From Neisseria arctica (GTDB lineage: Bacteria > Pseudomonadota > Gammaproteobacteria > Burkholderiales > Neisseriaceae), in contig NZ_CP091510.1 of the NCBI RefSeq assembly GCF_022870905.1, positions 310,001 through 374,000 of the forward strand: a stretch of DNA of 64,000 bases. The letters run 5' to 3'. Each line of letters begins with the position of its first letter. The stretch's first letter is position 1. The notes below the pieces were generated by a model. It did no database searches. It was not told where the DNA came from and saw only the letters and a program-made list of their open reading frames with translations. The translations under genes were made by a program, and so were the position numbers. Below, piece by piece: positions 2 to 6,353 of this stretch.

Positions 2-241
2 AATCCGAACGGCTATCCGGCCGATTTTGCTACCGTACTTACAGCGGTGGCGGCTTTGGCAATGGTCTTTTTGGGCTATTTGTTTTGCCGTTTTTCACTG
101 ATGAGACGTCAAAAGGAAAGCGAACGTTTGGCCTTGTTGCAGCATGAGAATATCCGCCCCGTATTGCAGCCGGCTGCCGATGCGCCGCACTTAATCGATA
201 TCGCTATCCAGCCACGGAAAGGGAGCGGCTTATGCCGTTAA
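2..241 (+). CDS. C-terminal fragment of an unknown membrane-anchored protein (5' end outside window)
   Basis: The reading frame is open from the window edge and stops at 241, giving the last 79 residues of a protein whose start is not visible. One hydrophobic segment (about residues 11-32 of the fragment) is followed by an Arg/Lys-rich stretch, so the tail is probably cytoplasmic after a single membrane pass. Composition is ordinary for this genome, in contrast to the AT-rich DNA that begins a few bases after the stop. The last residues (QPRKGSGLCR) may not be the original C-terminus, because the stop lies exactly where composition changes. I do not recognise the family. Confidence 0.45.
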   Translation, partial: NPNGYPADFATVLTAVAALAMVFLGYLFCRFSLMRRQKESERLALLQHENIRPVLQPAADAPHLIDIAIQPRKGSGLCR

Positions 242-245
242 ACTG

Positions 246-706
246 AGCATAGAAAGTGAGATTCTTGATTTGGTCGAATTTGATTTAGAGAGTAAATATA
301 GTGAGAGTGTTGATTGTATTTTTGTTTTTTGTCAGAGTGAAAGTTAAATTGATGAATTGGAAATAAAGATTCCAAAAGAAAAAATTATTGCTTTTAAATT
401 AGATGATTAATCAATACCGCAATGTGCTGAAATAATAAATACTATGCTGGAGTTAATTTTAGAGCAAGGAATAATTAATGTGGATTTTGCAGATATTAGT
501 AGTATGTTTTTAGGCAGAAAGTGGATCAAATATTACCGTTTTTCTATTAAAAAAGATTGGATTTTAATTTTCCTAATGATGCTTGGTTAAAGTCCAACAA
601 AGAAATTATTCTAGTTAATTTTTCTTCAGCTAATGATTTAGAATTTCCATATGGATCTGATATAGTTATGGAGTATATTGAAGAGCGTTTAGGGGTGAAA
701 CACTAA
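246..706 (+). pseudogene. Decayed FtsZ/tubulin-like gene, 5'-truncated
   Basis: Reading from 246 gives about 100 codons interrupted by TAA at 345 and TAA at 408. After a frame change near 545-560 the reading continues from 560 to a stop at 704-706. The stretch ending in GIINVDFADISSMF matches the FtsZ core segment usually written GLINVDFADV+TVM, with an appropriate helix before it (CAEIINTMLELI). The second frame contains EIILVNFSSANDLEF and a following helix, like the FtsZ C-terminal-domain strand (GVLVNI...DL). The N-terminal GTP-binding half with the GGGTGTG loop is absent. It directly precedes the PP2C gene in equally AT-rich DNA, so it was probably the first gene of that operon. The assignment comes from reading motifs by eye; no alignment was run. 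Confidence 0.6.
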
Positions 707-822
707 ATATAGGTTTAGGGAGGTCCATAAGCGTGAATAGAGACTTAGGCGAAGAGGTTATTATTAGTATTTTTGCTTATTAAGCTATTTAATATGACCT
801 ATTTTAATAAAATTGTGTATAT

Positions 823-1569
823 ATGTATAGTATTACCTTTACCCAAATGGCGTGTCCTAATAGACGAAATCAAGATGCCTTATTTAATGGCGTTGAAACA
901 TATCAATTTAAAAATAAAAAAGTTGAAGATTTTCAATTAAATCAAGATGGTTTTATTTTAGGAGTAATGGATGGTGTTTCAAGCAGCCCACAAGGGTACT
1001 TGGCAAGTTATTTCTGGGCAGAGCAATTAAAAACAAGTCAAGAATTATCAAAATCATGGCTAAAAGAGACACACTCACAATTTTGTGATCTCTTTGTTCG
1101 GTCAGCTTATGGAGCAAGTACAACATTTGTTGCTTGTCAGGTTTTTTCTTCAGGAAAAACAGTGATTTTAAATGTTGGAGATAGCCGAGCGTATAAAATT
1201 ACTGAAGCAGGATACTGGCAACAATTAAGTTATGATCATATTTTATTAAACGAATTAGTTGAGTCTGAAAATTGTGAATCGAAAGACTATGCTGGTATGT
1301 ATTATGGTTTAACAGATTGTTTAATCGCTGATTATGCTGAAAATGATTTTAATATATTTCAAACCGAGACAGTTCTAAAATCAGGGGAAACCTTATTACT
1401 GTGTTCTGATGGGTTAACAAATTATATTTCAGCCGAAAAGCGAGAAGCGATTTGGAGGAAGTATTCAACACATACTGAGCGGTTATTTGCATTGAAATGT
1501 GAAGTTAAGAGAGAGGCGTTTAGAGATGATTTCTCTGTTGTAACCTGTCAAAAGCTAGATGAATGTTGA
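823..1569 (+). CDS. PP2C-family serine/threonine protein phosphatase
   Basis: A 248-residue stand-alone PP2C phosphatase. The metal-binding and core motifs appear in order: RNQDALF near residue 15, GVMDGVSSS near 50, GASTTFVA near 95, NVGDSRAY near 125, LCSDGLTNYI near 195 and RDDFSVV near 237. The four acidic positions expected to bind Mn/Mg are present. There is no signal peptide or membrane segment, so it should act in the cytoplasm on phosphoSer/Thr. No partner kinase is visible in the window. No good ribosome binding site precedes the ATG. The gene is AT-rich like its neighbours and ends 20 bases before the start of the next gene, consistent with one operon. Its target is unknown; the decayed FtsZ-like protein or the downstream protein are candidates. 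Confidence 0.85.
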   Translation: MYSITFTQMACPNRRNQDALFNGVETYQFKNKKVEDFQLNQDGFILGVMDGVSSSPQGYLASYFWAEQLKTSQELSKSWLKETHSQFCDLFVRSAYGASTTFVACQVFSSGKTVILNVGDSRAYKITEAGYWQQLSYDHILLNELVESENCESKDYAGMYYGLTDCLIADYAENDFNIFQTETVLKSGETLLLCSDGLTNYISAEKREAIWRKYSTHTERLFALKCEVKREAFRDDFSVVTCQKLDEC

Positions 1570-1588
1570 AATAATTTTAAGGAGTAAA

Positions 1589-2326
1589 ATGGAGTCTTTA
1601 AATCAAGAACTTGCGAAAGAGTACCTTAGAATTTTAAAAGAATTTGAAAGTGAAAATACAGAATTTTTAAAAAATACTGAAAATTATTTCAGTCAAGTTC
1701 ATTTAGGATTTGTCCCTGATGGATTTAGAAAAGAAAATTTTAATGTCTTGATTCTTGGGCGTGAAACGCGTGGATGGGATGGCTTGGAAGGTGACTATAA
1801 TGAAAAATACATAGAGAATTCGATGGAAAAATCCAAATCATGGTCGGAGAAAATGTATGCAGAAAAAATATTGAATAAAAAAACTGGGAAAGGTTGTTCT
1901 TTTTTTAGATTTTTTAGCAATGTGGCAAAAAATATTGGTAGAGAAAAAGTTCTTTGGGGTAACCTTTATGCTTTCTCATATAAAAAAAGTCATCCGAAAG
2001 AGAGTGAGTACTTTAGGGAAATTGAAGAGGTATCAAAAAAACTCTTAGTTGCGCAAATTAAAGTGTTGCAGCCAAAATTAATTATTATTGCGTGTGGGGT
2101 AGATAAGGTAACAAGAAAAACTCGTGATGAATGCCTCAATGTTCAGTTTTCTGGACTCGCAGTTGATGGGGCGGATTTGCATAAAAGATATTTAGAAAGT
2201 TGTAAGATATTTATAGATGGCTGTGACGAAATAAAAGGCTATCGTATTCAGCATCCTAGTTCAATAAATTATGAAAGTCGAAAAGCAAGAGAATACTTAT
2301 TAACGGCTTTGAAAAATTTTGCCTAG
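1589..2326 (+). CDS. Uracil-DNA-glycosylase-fold-like protein of unknown function
   Basis: 245 residues if started at the ATG at 1589, which has AAGGAG at 1579-1584. A longer reading from 1559 overlaps the PP2C gene and lacks such a site. Residues about 52-63 read NVLILGRETRGW, a hydrophobic strand followed by the position where UDG-family enzymes carry GQDPYH or GEAPG-type loops. Near residue 162 LIIIACG forms another strand, and HPSS at about 222-225 sits where UDGs have HPSP. This layout suggests a divergent UDG-superfamily fold, but the loops are changed, so glycosylase activity cannot be assumed. No membrane segments. Same strand and same AT-rich composition as the phosphatase. Fold assignment is inference; a structure prediction would decide it. 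Confidence 0.6.
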   Translation: MESLNQELAKEYLRILKEFESENTEFLKNTENYFSQVHLGFVPDGFRKENFNVLILGRETRGWDGLEGDYNEKYIENSMEKSKSWSEKMYAEKILNKKTGKGCSFFRFFSNVAKNIGREKVLWGNLYAFSYKKSHPKESEYFREIEEVSKKLLVAQIKVLQPKLIIIACGVDKVTRKTRDECLNVQFSGLAVDGADLHKRYLESCKIFIDGCDEIKGYRIQHPSSINYESRKAREYLLTALKNFA

Positions 2327-2388
2327 CTTGCGCATACATATTGATTAAATCTATACGAATCTTTTTAAGCTGAGCTATGGCAGCTTAA

Positions 2389-2438
2389 CTTTAAACAATT
2401 CAAAGAGAGTTTGATAACTCTCTTTGAATTGTTTAAAG
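2389..2438 (+). terminator. Perfect 23-bp stem with TGAT loop
   Basis: Arms at 2389-2411 and 2416-2438 are exact reverse complements around a 4-base loop. It follows the last island gene by about 60 bases. There is no long T-tract, but the stem itself ends in A/T-rich sequence, so it could terminate in both directions. It contains no uptake sequence, unlike most hairpins in this window. Confidence 0.65.
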
Positions 2439-2497
2439 TGAAAATTTTATATCTAATCTATAACTATTAAAGCATAGCCGGTACTGCTGCTGCCGAT

Positions 2498-2785
2498 GTG
2501 TTGAGCGAGAGTGTAAAACCTTTGACGGCTTTTTCAGACGGCCTCGATATGTTGGCGGCAGGGGAAACGTACGGTAGTGTGTTTGCGGCTTTCGATACGT
2601 TGGCTTCCCGCTCTGCACCGGCACCTGTTAACGGTATCGTCAAAATAGTCGCACACTACAAAGATGCTTTGGGCTTGGATTGTGCAAGTGAAAGCACATT
2701 GGATATTGCCGTTTTGGGCGCGCTTCAAGCGAAACCGGCGAGTATCGGAACTGCTGTTAAACCGCGTAAGAAACTTTTATATTAA
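2498..2785 (+). CDS. Possible remnant of a truncated gene, 95 residues
   Basis: The frame is open from 2471 and could begin at the GTG at 2498. It encodes a soluble, Ala-rich peptide of unrecognised family with no obvious ribosome binding site. Composition is that of the host genome, and an uptake sequence (complement TTCAGACGGCCT, 2533-2544) lies inside the frame and is read as SDGL. Its position immediately downstream of the AT-rich island, together with the stop just before the frame, suggests the 3' part of an older gene that lost its 5' end when the island arrived. It may not be expressed. Confidence 0.3.
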   Translation: MLSESVKPLTAFSDGLDMLAAGETYGSVFAAFDTLASRSAPAPVNGIVKIVAHYKDALGLDCASESTLDIAVLGALQAKPASIGTAVKPRKKLLY

Positions 2786-3488: not shown

Positions 3489-3551
3489 TTGGTTTGAAAA
3501 AATGTTGATATAATTACGTGTAAATTTTTTCATCATAAATTAAGCGTGAAT

Positions 3552-4781
3552 ATGTCTGAATCTATTAGAAAACATCTTGATTTTCTCCGGTCGGTTTACA
3601 AGGCATTGCAAGAGCAGCGGAGAGAAGCACGGAAAACGGAATTGCATGATGCTTACCGATTTAATCCGTTCCACTTTTTCACTACTAATGAAAACGGTTT
3701 GTCGGCAGTATTGGCTTTTTTATTGGATCCGAAGGAAAGCCATGGCCAAGGCGATTTGCTGTTGAATGCTTTTTTGAAAAGAATGAAGCTGTATTCGTTT
3801 TTAGGCTATGAAAGTGTTGGGGTTTCGTTGGAAAAAACCATAGGAAGCAAGCGGCGGCACGATATTTTTATCGAAGGATTTATCGGTTCGAAGAGTGTTT
3901 GGGCTTTATCGATAGAAAATAAATTACGCGATGCGGCAGATCAGCCACAGCAAATACAAGATTATATTGAGGATTTGAAGAGCAAATCTAAAGATCAGTA
4001 TTGCCTGGTTTATTTGCCTTCTTTGGAGCGCATCCCGTCCGAGCACTCCATTAGTAAAGAAAATTTTGGGTTAGTATCCACGAACGGCCATTTAAAGGTG
4101 TTGGATGCGGGCGGCTTGATAGGTTGGCTTCAAGAGGCACCGATAATCGCACCCAAGATACGCCAGTTTGTTGAGTACTTTATACAATTTTTAAAGGAAG
4201 ATGTAATGGGAGAAACCGTAGATACCAATGAGCTGGTAGAACATATTGTCGGTGATGAGAAAAATCTGGAGTCTGCATTAGAAGTTATTGCGGCGGAGCA
4301 GCAAATCCGCAAGTATTTGTGGCAGCGGCTTTGTGAGCAATTGGGTTGTAAGTGCCGTGAGCGTTATCCGTGTTTGGTAGCGGCAGGGTGGAGTATCGGA
4401 TCGGGATCGGATTTTAAGCCGTATTCAAGATATATGTGGCTTGGGTTTTATCTGAAAAATGATAAGGATGTGGTCGCGGGAGTCGGGATTGAGTTTAGCG
4501 GTACTTATTATCATAGTTGTTGTTATGGTGTTTGGATGAAGCAAGCATATCTAAGTGATGAGGTTTTATCACAAAAAATTGAGGAATTAAGAGTTTCTAC
4601 CAATGGATCAAAAAGCTCGAGTTGGCCTTTTTATGAGTGGCTTAGCGGTGATTTAAAAAACTGGGAACCTTCTACTTGGTTGCGTATTCCATCAGGTCGG
4701 TTGGCAGATGAGTTGTTTGAAAAATGGCAGCCTCTTTTGGATATTTTCGAAGAAATCCGTAAACGGCCTGTCAGCCAATAA
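3552..4781 (+). CDS. PD-(D/E)XK nuclease superfamily protein (PDDEXK_4-like)
   Basis: 409 residues from the ATG at 3552; a GTG two codons upstream is an alternative, and neither has a strong ribosome binding site. The N-terminal motif ENGLSAVLAFLLDP (about 47-60) followed by HGQGDLLLNAFL is characteristic of this nuclease group. The catalytic set looks complete: Asp about 104 in HDIFIEG, and Glu122-x-Lys124 in ALSIENK, followed by a Gln-rich helix (QPQQIQDY). The C-terminal 250 residues are a separate domain of unknown role. It stands alone, without a methylase or helicase beside it, so it does not form a recognisable restriction system here. Members are often found in defence or mobile contexts, which would fit this accessory region; function is unproven. 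Confidence 0.75.
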   Translation: MSESIRKHLDFLRSVYKALQEQRREARKTELHDAYRFNPFHFFTTNENGLSAVLAFLLDPKESHGQGDLLLNAFLKRMKLYSFLGYESVGVSLEKTIGSKRRHDIFIEGFIGSKSVWALSIENKLRDAADQPQQIQDYIEDLKSKSKDQYCLVYLPSLERIPSEHSISKENFGLVSTNGHLKVLDAGGLIGWLQEAPIIAPKIRQFVEYFIQFLKEDVMGETVDTNELVEHIVGDEKNLESALEVIAAEQQIRKYLWQRLCEQLGCKCRERYPCLVAAGWSIGSGSDFKPYSRYMWLGFYLKNDKDVVAGVGIEFSGTYYHSCCYGVWMKQAYLSDEVLSQKIEELRVSTNGSKSSSWPFYEWLSGDLKNWEPSTWLRIPSGRLADELFEKWQPLLDIFEEIRKRPVSQ

Positions 4782-4809
4782 TCATAAATTAGGCAGCACG
4801 AAAATCAGA

Positions 4810-4838
4810 ATGCCGTCTGAAAAATTTTCAGACGGCAT
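4810..4838 (+). terminator. Uptake-sequence inverted repeat
   Basis: ATGCCGTCTGAAAA pairs perfectly with its complement and is followed by a T-run, between the convergent nuclease gene and the minus-strand membrane protein. It could serve both. Confidence 0.8.
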
Positions 4839-4863
4839 TTTTTATTGTCCGGGTATGTATAAC

Positions 4864-5370
4864 TTATATATCGGCGGTGGTTTGAGTAGCCATAGCTGCA
4901 GGCTGTTTGTGTAAGCGGTACCAACCTGCAAGCCGCCAGAGGCACAGCAGGGCAATGAGTGGTTGGCAGAATGCAGTGATGAGGTAACGGGGATTGTTAA
5001 AGGCAATGGTACTGCTGCCGCCTGCGAAATGCAGCAAGGCCCAAAACCATTCCCATAAAGAAGGCAGACTGAATGCCATTACCGCCAATAGGCCTAGGGT
5101 GCGGAAAATACCGATAGGCAGAATAGTACCGCGCAATACTGTGCGGTTAAGTTGCAACAGTACCAGCAGACCGAAGCCGATAATGACGATCATCCCGCCG
5201 TTGGCTACAACCTGTAAGCCGCTGAAAGCAATATCGGGCGATACGGGCAGGCCGTCTTTGGGCAGTTGGGCTTCCGAAAGATTTAAGCTTTGGAGAATGT
5301 TTAGTACGAAGCCGTAAGCCATGTCGGCCAATACGATCCAAACCGGCAGGGAAGTGAATATCCGTTTCAT
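4864..5370 (-). CDS. Unknown four-helix inner-membrane protein
   Basis: 168 residues with about four hydrophobic segments (near residues 8-26, 54-74, 87-107 and 128-148) and short polar loops. No catalytic motif is visible. I do not recognise the family. It is transcribed alone on the minus strand and shares the hairpin at 4810-4838 with the nuclease gene. The start is the ATG at 5370. Confidence 0.65.
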   Translation of the reverse strand: MKRIFTSLPVWIVLADMAYGFVLNILQSLNLSEAQLPKDGLPVSPDIAFSGLQVVANGGMIVIIGFGLLVLLQLNRTVLRGTILPIGIFRTLGLLAVMAFSLPSLWEWFWALLHFAGGSSTIAFNNPRYLITAFCQPLIALLCLWRLAGWYRLHKQPAAMATQTTADI

Positions 5371-5656
5371 AAAGCAAGCGGGCAGTTATAGTGCAAAGCA
5401 TTTAGTGTAGCGGTAAAAGGGTTGGTTGGCTATTGTGTTGTGCAGTTGAAATCAACCTTTGGACGAGTTGCGGTAATGCCGGGTTGTATCGGACGAAGCA
5501 GGTGGGTTTGTCTGTGGATATGGTTGCAGCCAAGTTGTTTGTTATTTGTAGCGGCGTACCTATGAACGGTAAATAATAATCATATGCTACGTTACCTATA
5601 TTTGGATGCGCTGCTCTAAAATAGTATCTGCTAACTGGTTGACACAAATAAAATTA
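5371..5656. other. Intergenic region between divergent genes
   Basis: About 290 bases with no convincing gene. A minus-strand frame at 5402-5647 exists but lacks a ribosome binding site and any recognisable feature. The right end probably carries the promoter of the TetR gene. Confidence 0.5.
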
Positions 5657-5678
5657 AAACGTATGTTTCAATCAAACA
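5657..5678 (+). promoter_or_regulatory. Candidate operator for the TetR regulator (PsrA-like site)
   Basis: AAAC-GTAT-GTTT at 5657-5668 is immediately joined by TGTTT-CAATC-AAACA at 5664-5678, so two overlapping inverted repeats share one GTTT half. The first fits the general form of PsrA-type fatty-acid-sensor sites, AAAC N2-4 GTTT. It lies about 35-50 bases upstream of the regulator start, suggesting autoregulation. A similar site precedes fadL. Confidence 0.45.
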
Positions 5679-5708
5679 GCTGATTTAATTTTTTTGAATG
5701 ATTTGCGT

Positions 5709-6353
5709 ATGAACTCTAACGGAGACTGCCAAACGATCGGGCGTATCCTAAGCGCTGCAGAGTCCCACTTCGCTTTGCACGGATTTTTTGCATCTTCGCT
5801 GCGGCAGATTATGCGGGATGCAAAAGTGAACGTGGCGGCTGCGCATTATCATTTCGGTTCGAAAGAGGCTTTGTTTTTAGCTGTCCTCAACCGCCGTATT
5901 GCTCCGTTTTTGGAAGACTTGCTGACTATGCTGCAAGAAGCCGAAGCACAGCAGCAGGTTTTGACTCCCGAAGATTTGATCGACAGTTTTATCGCGGCTT
6001 GCTTGAAATTAGTGAATGAGCAGGGCGAGTTGGCAGGAACGGCGGCAAAGTTGGTGTCACGGTTGATGTTGGATGAATACAAGATTTTCCGTGAAGAACT
6101 GGCCAAACAGTTTTCGGAAATGGCGGATCGTCTTCATGCTGCTTTCGGACGGGCGTTGCCGCATTTGCCGCCGGAAATGCTGCGTTGGCGTATGCATTTG
6201 GCGCTCAGTACGCTCTTTAATGCTTTCGCAGGCAATGATGTCTTGAAGGCCTTGGCTCCGGCCAGCGTAGTAAGTGCGAAAAATGTCCAGCAGGTGGCGC
6301 ATTATGTACGTCCATTTGTCATTGCAGGCTTGAAAGCGCCTGCCGATAGCTAG
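5709..6353 (+). CDS. TetR-family regulator, probably of fatty-acid oxidation
   Basis: 214 residues from the ATG at 5709; a TTG at 5694 in the same frame is a weaker choice. The N-terminal helix-turn-helix is clear (SSLRQIMRDAKVNVAAAHYHF, about residues 29-49, then GSKEALF), followed by an all-helical ligand-binding domain. It lies 80 bases upstream of fadE on the same strand, and paired AAAC/GTTT sites occur before its own gene and before fadL. By analogy with PsrA and FadR-like TetR proteins it probably represses beta-oxidation genes until long-chain acyl-CoA binds. That role is inference from context. Confidence 0.8.
   Translation: MNSNGDCQTIGRILSAAESHFALHGFFASSLRQIMRDAKVNVAAAHYHFGSKEALFLAVLNRRIAPFLEDLLTMLQEAEAQQQVLTPEDLIDSFIAACLKLVNEQGELAGTAAKLVSRLMLDEYKIFREELAKQFSEMADRLHAAFGRALPHLPPEMLRWRMHLALSTLFNAFAGNDVLKALAPASVVSAKNVQQVAHYVRPFVIAGLKAPADS

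Follow-up and report, generated by a model that had tools for sequence, protein, structure and literature searches.

A decayed FtsZ mimic in an AT-rich island of Neisseria arctica and its intact relatives in Pasteurellaceae

Results

We analyzed a stretch of 64,000 nucleotides of the Neisseria arctica genome (contig NZ_CP091510.1, positions 310,001 to 374,000; hereafter the window) that carries a small AT-rich island with three genes near its start. The locus is best explained as an island of three stand-alone accessory modules as they occur in defence-type islands of Pasteurellaceae: the relic of an FtsZ-like gene, a PP2C-type phosphatase and a protein with a predicted uracil-DNA glycosylase (UDG) fold. 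The new element is an FtsZ mimic that retains the T7 face only. The best explanation for the first gene is that it is the relic of such a pseudo-FtsZ, the intact family having lost the GTP-binding motif and kept the T7 loop and the activation domain, which form the bottom face of FtsZ. Searches of the open-licence PubMed Central (PMC) literature listed no paper that, judged by its listing, describes this protein type. An initial annotation made from the sequence alone had proposed a tubulin-like relic, a phosphatase and a UDG-fold protein in this place, and that observation is confirmed as real.

The first island gene resembles a short FtsZ-derived family

Three-frame translation of positions 201-820 revealed no intact frame in the relic. 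Piece 411-587 holds the T7 loop with the phrase INVDFAD and piece 551-703 a stretch resembling the activation domain; the G-loop was not found in the relic pieces. A Pfam scan of the two pieces gave no match, and the NCBIfam ftsZ model matched 444-587, which overlaps 411-587, far below its cut-off (E 0.0082, profile positions 203-224). We then compared all 1922 six-frame pieces of the window with at least 20 residues to two profiles. With a canonical FtsZ profile (35 sequences), 411-587 ranked first (E 0.004) and the collinear piece 551-703 second (E 0.47). With the second profile, built from 11 FtsZ-like proteins of non-canonical type and without rows of the window, 411-587 reached E 3.6e-7 with a runner-up at 1.6, and piece 551-703 was not among the listed matches. 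Piece 411-587 scored 26.7 bits with this mimic profile, 13.1 with canonical FtsZ, 10.7 with Pasteurellaceae FtsZ (n = 22) and 9.7 with Neisseria FtsZ (n = 5). Because the mimic profile fits better than canonical FtsZ, the T7 piece belongs, judged by profile scores, with a short FtsZ-derived family and not with FtsZ proper; piece 551-703 supports FtsZ ancestry through its rank and order only. The same scores (26.7 vs 13.1) led us to reject the idea that the relic is a fragment of the genome's own FtsZ, for which a separate match of 398 amino acids (aa) lies at 2107503. The decayed tubulin-family member of the initial annotation was upheld.

Intact mimics lack the GTP-binding motif and keep the T7 face

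Intact relatives in Pasteurellaceae are short FtsZ-derived proteins of half the size of FtsZ that end at the activation domain (genomes and loci carry our own G and L numbers). The G-loop GGGTG(S/T)G (T4) is missing from the aligned intact mimics, and both T7-loop aspartates are invariant in 11 rows, in which identity to the first row is mostly 15-25%. When nine intact mimics were scanned with PF12327, four exceeded the cut-off (L132, L136, L197, L200), four stayed below it (L198, L199, L202, L140) and one gave no match (L144). The C-terminal half of the mimic superposes on FtsZ, with H7, T7 loop and activation domain kept. The mimics were nearer to Pasteurellaceae FtsZ than to other FtsZ, in a lopsided set of 29 Pasteurellaceae, five Neisseria and one other sequence. 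T7 loop, H7 and activation domain are shared with bacterial FtsZ (PF00091 and PF12327), from which the mimic differs by its lack of the GTP-binding motif, its half size and its place as an accessory-island gene additional to the normal ftsZ.

The FtsZl families, which the initial annotation had brought up, are likewise FtsZ-like, act outside cell division and coexist with normal FtsZ (PMC2875224). As described there, FtsZl1 keeps the G-loop, has no recognizable T6-H7 and carries a coiled coil, whereas FtsZl2 keeps T1, T4, T6 and T7 and has a C-terminal extension of about 300 aa. The mimic shows the opposite pattern to FtsZl1, with the G-loop lost and T7 kept, and differs from FtsZl2 by the loss of T4 and by ending at the activation domain. 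Since both FtsZl families keep the GTP-binding loop in that description, we rejected membership in either.

Two neighbouring genes on L132 (6328-7113 and 5456-6307, minus strand), termed FtsZ-a and FtsZ-b, show complementary losses. FtsZ-a comprises the GTP-binding half without T7, and FtsZ-b lacks the G-loop but holds T7 together with the activation domain; GGGNGTG, corresponding to the G-loop, is present only in FtsZ-a of L132 and L134. L134 has the same pair, and in L195 it is broken.

Domain fusions were observed as well. On L202, positions 4045-6183 encode a 712-aa protein in which an FtsK motor (227 bits) and FtsK_gamma (61 bits) are fused to an FtsZ-like domain that scores below cut-off (23.5 bits). 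L198 encodes a gamma-like domain (28.4 bits, just under cut-off) fused to an FtsZ-like domain, and on L130, adjoining PP2C, FtsK_gamma is fused to leucine-rich repeats. As FtsZ-like domains (L202, L198) and leucine-rich repeats (L130) are thus carried as different heads, FtsK-gamma seems to be an address for varied heads. A further FtsZ-like fragment (L201:6580-6885, minus strand) adjoins what we take, by inspection, to be a disrupted gene of WYL type and a Cas9-like gene for 1055 aa.

The mimic recurs beside PP2C in defence-type surroundings

Of 140 Pasteurellaceae genomes, at least 13 had a non-canonical FtsZ-like protein (G084, G088, G089, G090, G113, G117, G124, G133, G139, G152, G169, G205 as a fragment and G208 as a fusion); this count excludes part of a canonical ftsZ with a broken frame in G084. 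PP2C was present in 37 of the 140 genomes and together with the mimic in seven (Fisher p 0.026). In six of these seven the two genes lay within 2 kb of each other, so that intact FtsZ-like relatives do stand beside this PP2C family. Since the genes of G088, G089 and G090 are near-identical, the adjacency amounts to about four of five independent cases, and it far exceeds random placement. The arrangement of the window, with the FtsZ-like gene immediately 5' of a codirectional PP2C gene, is also that of G113 and G139; in G124 the two are separated by a WYL gene, and they are convergent in G088, G089 and G090. The recurrence of all three window families with an intact FtsZ-like gene, proposed as a check by the initial annotation, was seen in one genome, G089 (L203), within 3.2 kb. 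Neither of the outcomes named there as speaking against the idea occurred.

Outside Pasteurellaceae, 46 genomes of the window's genus were searched; the top hit in the window's own genome is circular, as the query profile contained the relic pieces, and does not count as evidence, and the other listed FtsZ-type matches had full FtsZ length. At E 1e-12, a threshold that would miss the most diverged mimics, 394 genomes of the wider order yielded one short protein among the listed matches (G152, itself Pasteurellaceae); 22 further genomes of the order had two matches, and a repeat search gave only open frames of 347-447 aa there, which is full FtsZ length. A scan of the viral collection with the FtsZ-like protein gave none.

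We surveyed the genes within 8 kb of 24 Pasteurellaceae PP2C loci (23 genomes, hand-picked from 41 match rows), with labels by one reference protein each. The surroundings contained Sir2/CobB (19 loci), WYL (10), GmrSD-like (9), NT5C (9), FtsK-gamma (8), AAA ATPase (8), RhuM (6), FtsZ-like (5) and PDDEXK_4 (4) genes, and Pfam confirmed most labels. A Pfam tally of 99 of the 133 listed neighbours, the 34 omitted being mostly housekeeping-looking, gave SIR2 27, GmrSD_N 16, WYL 7, RhuM 5, NT5C 5, PDDEXK_4 4, Mrr 3 and Fic 3. No kinase was among the best 25 of 51 Pfam neighbour families. In PADLOC, HEC-06, Orf5 and SspE were matched by most members (best 25 of 119 families). With SIR2, GmrSD, WYL and similar genes as neighbours, the surroundings of PP2C and the mimic look like defence-type islands. 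The best reading of the parts is that they are independently mobile, defence-type modules.

The phosphatase and the UDG-fold protein occur largely on their own

The phosphatase named by the initial annotation was corroborated by a PF13672 match above the cut-off of 24 bits and by conserved acidic residues: D18, D50, D196 and D235, which we take to be the metal-binding residues of PP2C, are invariant in 26 rows. In the tree, the window protein pairs with one from Pasteurellaceae (support 90/88; the branches of the two are long), and the remaining PP2Cs of Neisseriaceae are found at two other positions. Together, the Pasteurellaceae partner and these scattered placements suggest that PP2C was transferred repeatedly, and at least the island's PP2C gene is probably of Pasteurellaceae origin. 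PP2C was found in 8 of 83 Neisseriaceae genomes including that of the window; a profile search of five other Neisseriaceae PP2C loci fetched at length (L150-L154) revealed no FtsZ-like frame. Among plasmids, tblastn with PP2C returned 23 records, all below 60% identity. The viral collection gave two distant matches, and the phage tblastn with query P0004 ten distant records. A genome-contig scan with query A1 gave mostly Gram-positive groups among the best 80 of 428 confirmed loci, of which L020 was inspected; single-protein scans with PP2C and the UDG-like protein, run on the genome and viral collections, gave nothing informative.

No Hanks-type kinase (PF00069) was found near PP2C; the only match above cut-off in the own genome, presumably a UbiB-type protein, lies 20 kb away, which argues against the phosphorylation control that the initial annotation had envisaged. 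KKP (kinase-kinase-phosphatase), described as a phage defence system, shares the PF13672 phosphatase with our locus and combines it with two Ser/Thr kinase genes (PMC11341870). As no kinases were found near the phosphatase, we rejected a KKP reading of the locus.

The product of 1589-2326 appears to have a UDG fold and thus to belong to the UDG superfamily, as initially annotated, because of its profile match and a medium-quality model. Family-4 UDGs carry an Fe-S cluster on four conserved cysteines. An alignment of 16 rows of the UDG-like family has no cysteine in any column that is invariant or nearly so, which speaks against family-4 membership. The gene was found in 5 of 83 Neisseriaceae genomes, the window's included, and in the other four (L155-L158) the relative occupies one gene interval of a cell-wall cluster, presumably murE-murF; no PP2C or FtsZ-like gene was seen adjoining it there. 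Five of the 140 Pasteurellaceae genomes carried it as well (two weak matches), at 0.8 kb from PP2C in G089 and about 6.5 kb in G160, and one genome had it together with the FtsZ-like gene. It was also present in ten plasmid records, five of which cover at least 80% of the query. On L245 (5001-5744) a UDG-like gene whose product is 36% identical to the window protein lies among tail genes of a prophage that is Mu-like by inspection. Such an occurrence, at the cell-wall cluster, on plasmids and in a prophage, is typical of cargo genes that stand alone. Two related 240-aa proteins with a WFCGLEW motif lie near PP2C (L143:5387-6106, minus strand, and L145:1574-2290); their alignment with the UDG-like family is loose, and neither gave a meaningful Pfam match.

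The closest functional precedent for the UDG-like protein is Brig1, described as a UDG-superfamily enzyme that excises a modified base from T4 DNA (PMC11078745). The base that characterizes Brig1 activity is glucosyl-hmC. Both are stand-alone UDG-superfamily proteins from defence islands, and the nearest solved structure is the S. tokodaii family-4 UDG in both cases.

The island interrupts a membrane-protein gene

The island of about 2.2 kb has a GC content of 31.2% compared to 46.9% for the window; its low GC and its single perfect hairpin had been noted by the initial annotation and were found again (Table 1). In G042 and G046, which belong to the same genus, the flanks are uninterrupted and form a single membrane-protein gene, and the resident gene was therefore broken by the island. 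Relative to these genomes, the split gene has an additional frame loss just 5' of the island. The 10-base neisserial uptake word, a mark of Neisseria, occurs 48 times in the window; its absence from the island, noted by the initial annotation, was not significant and was dropped as evidence of foreign origin. Plasmid blastn with the island gave 0 matches. One gene past the downstream flank, positions 3546-4781 encode a PDDEXK_4 nuclease (PADLOC PDC-S26, E 4.3e-32) that clusters with PP2C neighbours from Pasteurellaceae. Because L258 and L259 keep the preceding gene and no nuclease frame was seen after it, the nuclease gene may be a second insertion.

Table 1. Features at and around the island (positions in the window)
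Feature	Position	Strand	Remarks
Membrane-protein gene, upstream remainder	2..252	+	out of frame near its own end compared with relatives
AGCATAG repeats (7 bases) bounding the island	246-252 and 2471-2477		
AT-rich island within the membrane-protein gene	about 253..2477		GC content 31.2%; G042 and G046 have the empty site
FtsZ-like relic	253..706	+	pieces spread over two frames, with two in-frame stops; start undefined
PP2C-type phosphatase, intact, 248 aa	823..1569	+	PF13672 33.6 bits
UDG-fold protein, intact, 245 aa	1589..2326	+	profile match E 3.3e-5; medium-quality model
Perfect hairpin near the right end of the island	2388..2439		24-bp stem, 4-base loop; not called a terminator
Membrane-protein gene, downstream remainder	2478..2785	+	joined flanks aligned with L258 and L259

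Discussion

How might a bacterium benefit from an FtsZ that has lost its GTP-binding motif? What the analysis shows are the homologies, the parts of FtsZ that were lost or retained, the island with its empty site and the recurrence beside PP2C; each functional step of the following is one we infer. The synergy-loop (T7) face of the mimic might serve as bait: division inhibitors of phages or of the SOS type that bind this face of FtsZ would bind the mimic instead. Their capture would either spare host FtsZ, as a sponge, or signal infection, as a sensor, in some genomes possibly via the fused FtsK-gamma DNA-binding domain. PP2C would most likely dephosphorylate host or island proteins, and the UDG-fold protein, like Brig1, would most likely target modified phage DNA.

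Such a bait would fit what is reported for T7 Gp0.4, which, like SulA and MciZ, binds the synergy-loop face of FtsZ according to a predicted complex and mutant and binding data, and whose complex with FtsZ activates CapRel-Ebc (PMC13423816). There, too, a defence reads this face as a phage target; CapRel-Ebc differs in being a toxin-antitoxin fusion that uses the cell's own FtsZ and no mimic. Among conflict effectors, Kaur et al. 2020 (PMC7159879) describe domains of MinD/ParA and FtsK that are inactive as well as rare domains of FtsZ/tubulin type, and they mention decoys. The systems covered there are centred on MoxR-vWA or GTPases, core genes of which none was seen here. Since the mimic keeps the face bound by Gp0.4, SulA and MciZ, inactive domains are described and decoys mentioned for conflict systems, and FtsK-gamma fusions occur, we tentatively prefer a bait or sensor, an explanation from comparative analysis that is unproven and that we rate somewhat short of an even chance. 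The broader version, that in defence-type islands of Pasteurellaceae and, through transfer, of a Neisseria-like bacterium pseudo-FtsZ baits, possibly captured repeatedly from host FtsZ, soak up or report phage inhibitors and are sometimes wired to FtsK-gamma or split into a GTP half and a T7 half, is more doubtful.

Several observations weigh against this interpretation. The null model of random placement ignores that genes pile up in islands; UDG-like and PP2C genes are not enriched together (Fisher p 0.12); the model of P0123 is poor beyond the C-terminal half; and the mimics may or may not share ancestry, with 12 of 21 inner branches of the FtsZ tree open and long branches meeting. Selection is weak, with a ratio of non-synonymous to synonymous substitution rates (dN/dS) of 0.28-0.48 for FtsZ-b and 0.68 for a second type vs 0.12-0.19 for PP2C, which fits an arms race or decay. 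Six of the 13 mimic genomes lack PP2C. Finally, the retained synergy-loop face would serve an FtsZ cap equally.

A cap or poison is accordingly the first alternative, unlikely in our view and ranked below the bait or sensor: the mimic would dock through its synergy-loop face onto the nucleotide face of a host FtsZ subunit, cap the filament, complete the GTPase site and stop division, for example in abortive infection, and PP2C or expression control would keep it off. T7 aspartates complete the FtsZ GTPase site, and the invariance of both, the loss of the nucleotide site next to a kept activation domain and the order of mimic and PP2C in G113 and G139 are in line with capping. However, the genomes without PP2C count against a cap as well, a constant cognate partner gene is missing, and fusion to an FtsK motor and gamma domain would be superfluous for capping.

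That the mimics have no function and are drifting fragments of duplicated ftsZ genes riding in islands seems improbable. Their fast evolution (dN/dS up to 0.68) and the broken or truncated copies found in the window, in L195 and in L201 would suit drift, but both T7 aspartates persist despite the low identity between rows, and open frames in most of the genomes found, the repeated placement beside PP2C and the FtsK-domain fusions point to the contrary. We consider it slightly less probable still that FtsZ-a, with its GTP pocket, and FtsZ-b, with its T7 loop, form a two-part GTPase or filament of which lone mimics are remnants. Both halves stand side by side in L132 and L134, match FtsZ in the PDB (E 5.5e-22 for a, 3.5e-14 for b, L132), and FtsZ-a is well conserved (dN/dS 0.13); yet G089 has FtsZ-b with no FtsZ-a seen beside it, and none was found in the neighbourhoods read of L136, L140, L144, L197, L199 and L200. 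The dedicated, phosphorylation-controlled three-part machine of the initial annotation is very improbable: the families meet in G089 and the window, and FtsZ-like and PP2C genes are enriched together and mostly adjacent, but PP2C (37 of 140 genomes) and UDG-like genes (5) mostly occur without the mimic (at least 13), UDG-like and FtsZ-like genes share a single genome, and no kinase was found nearby.

Phages target FtsZ, and one immune protein is known that senses FtsZ in complex with an inhibitor. If the preferred bait or sensor holds, a family that keeps just the inhibitor-bound face would be a natural decoy, or alternatively, if the cap is true, a natural FtsZ cap; either would provide a small protein tool for FtsZ assembly. 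The complementary losses of FtsZ-a and FtsZ-b amount to a natural experiment on how tubulin active sites are shared between subunits. As intact copies of the mimic exist, the question is open to experiment.
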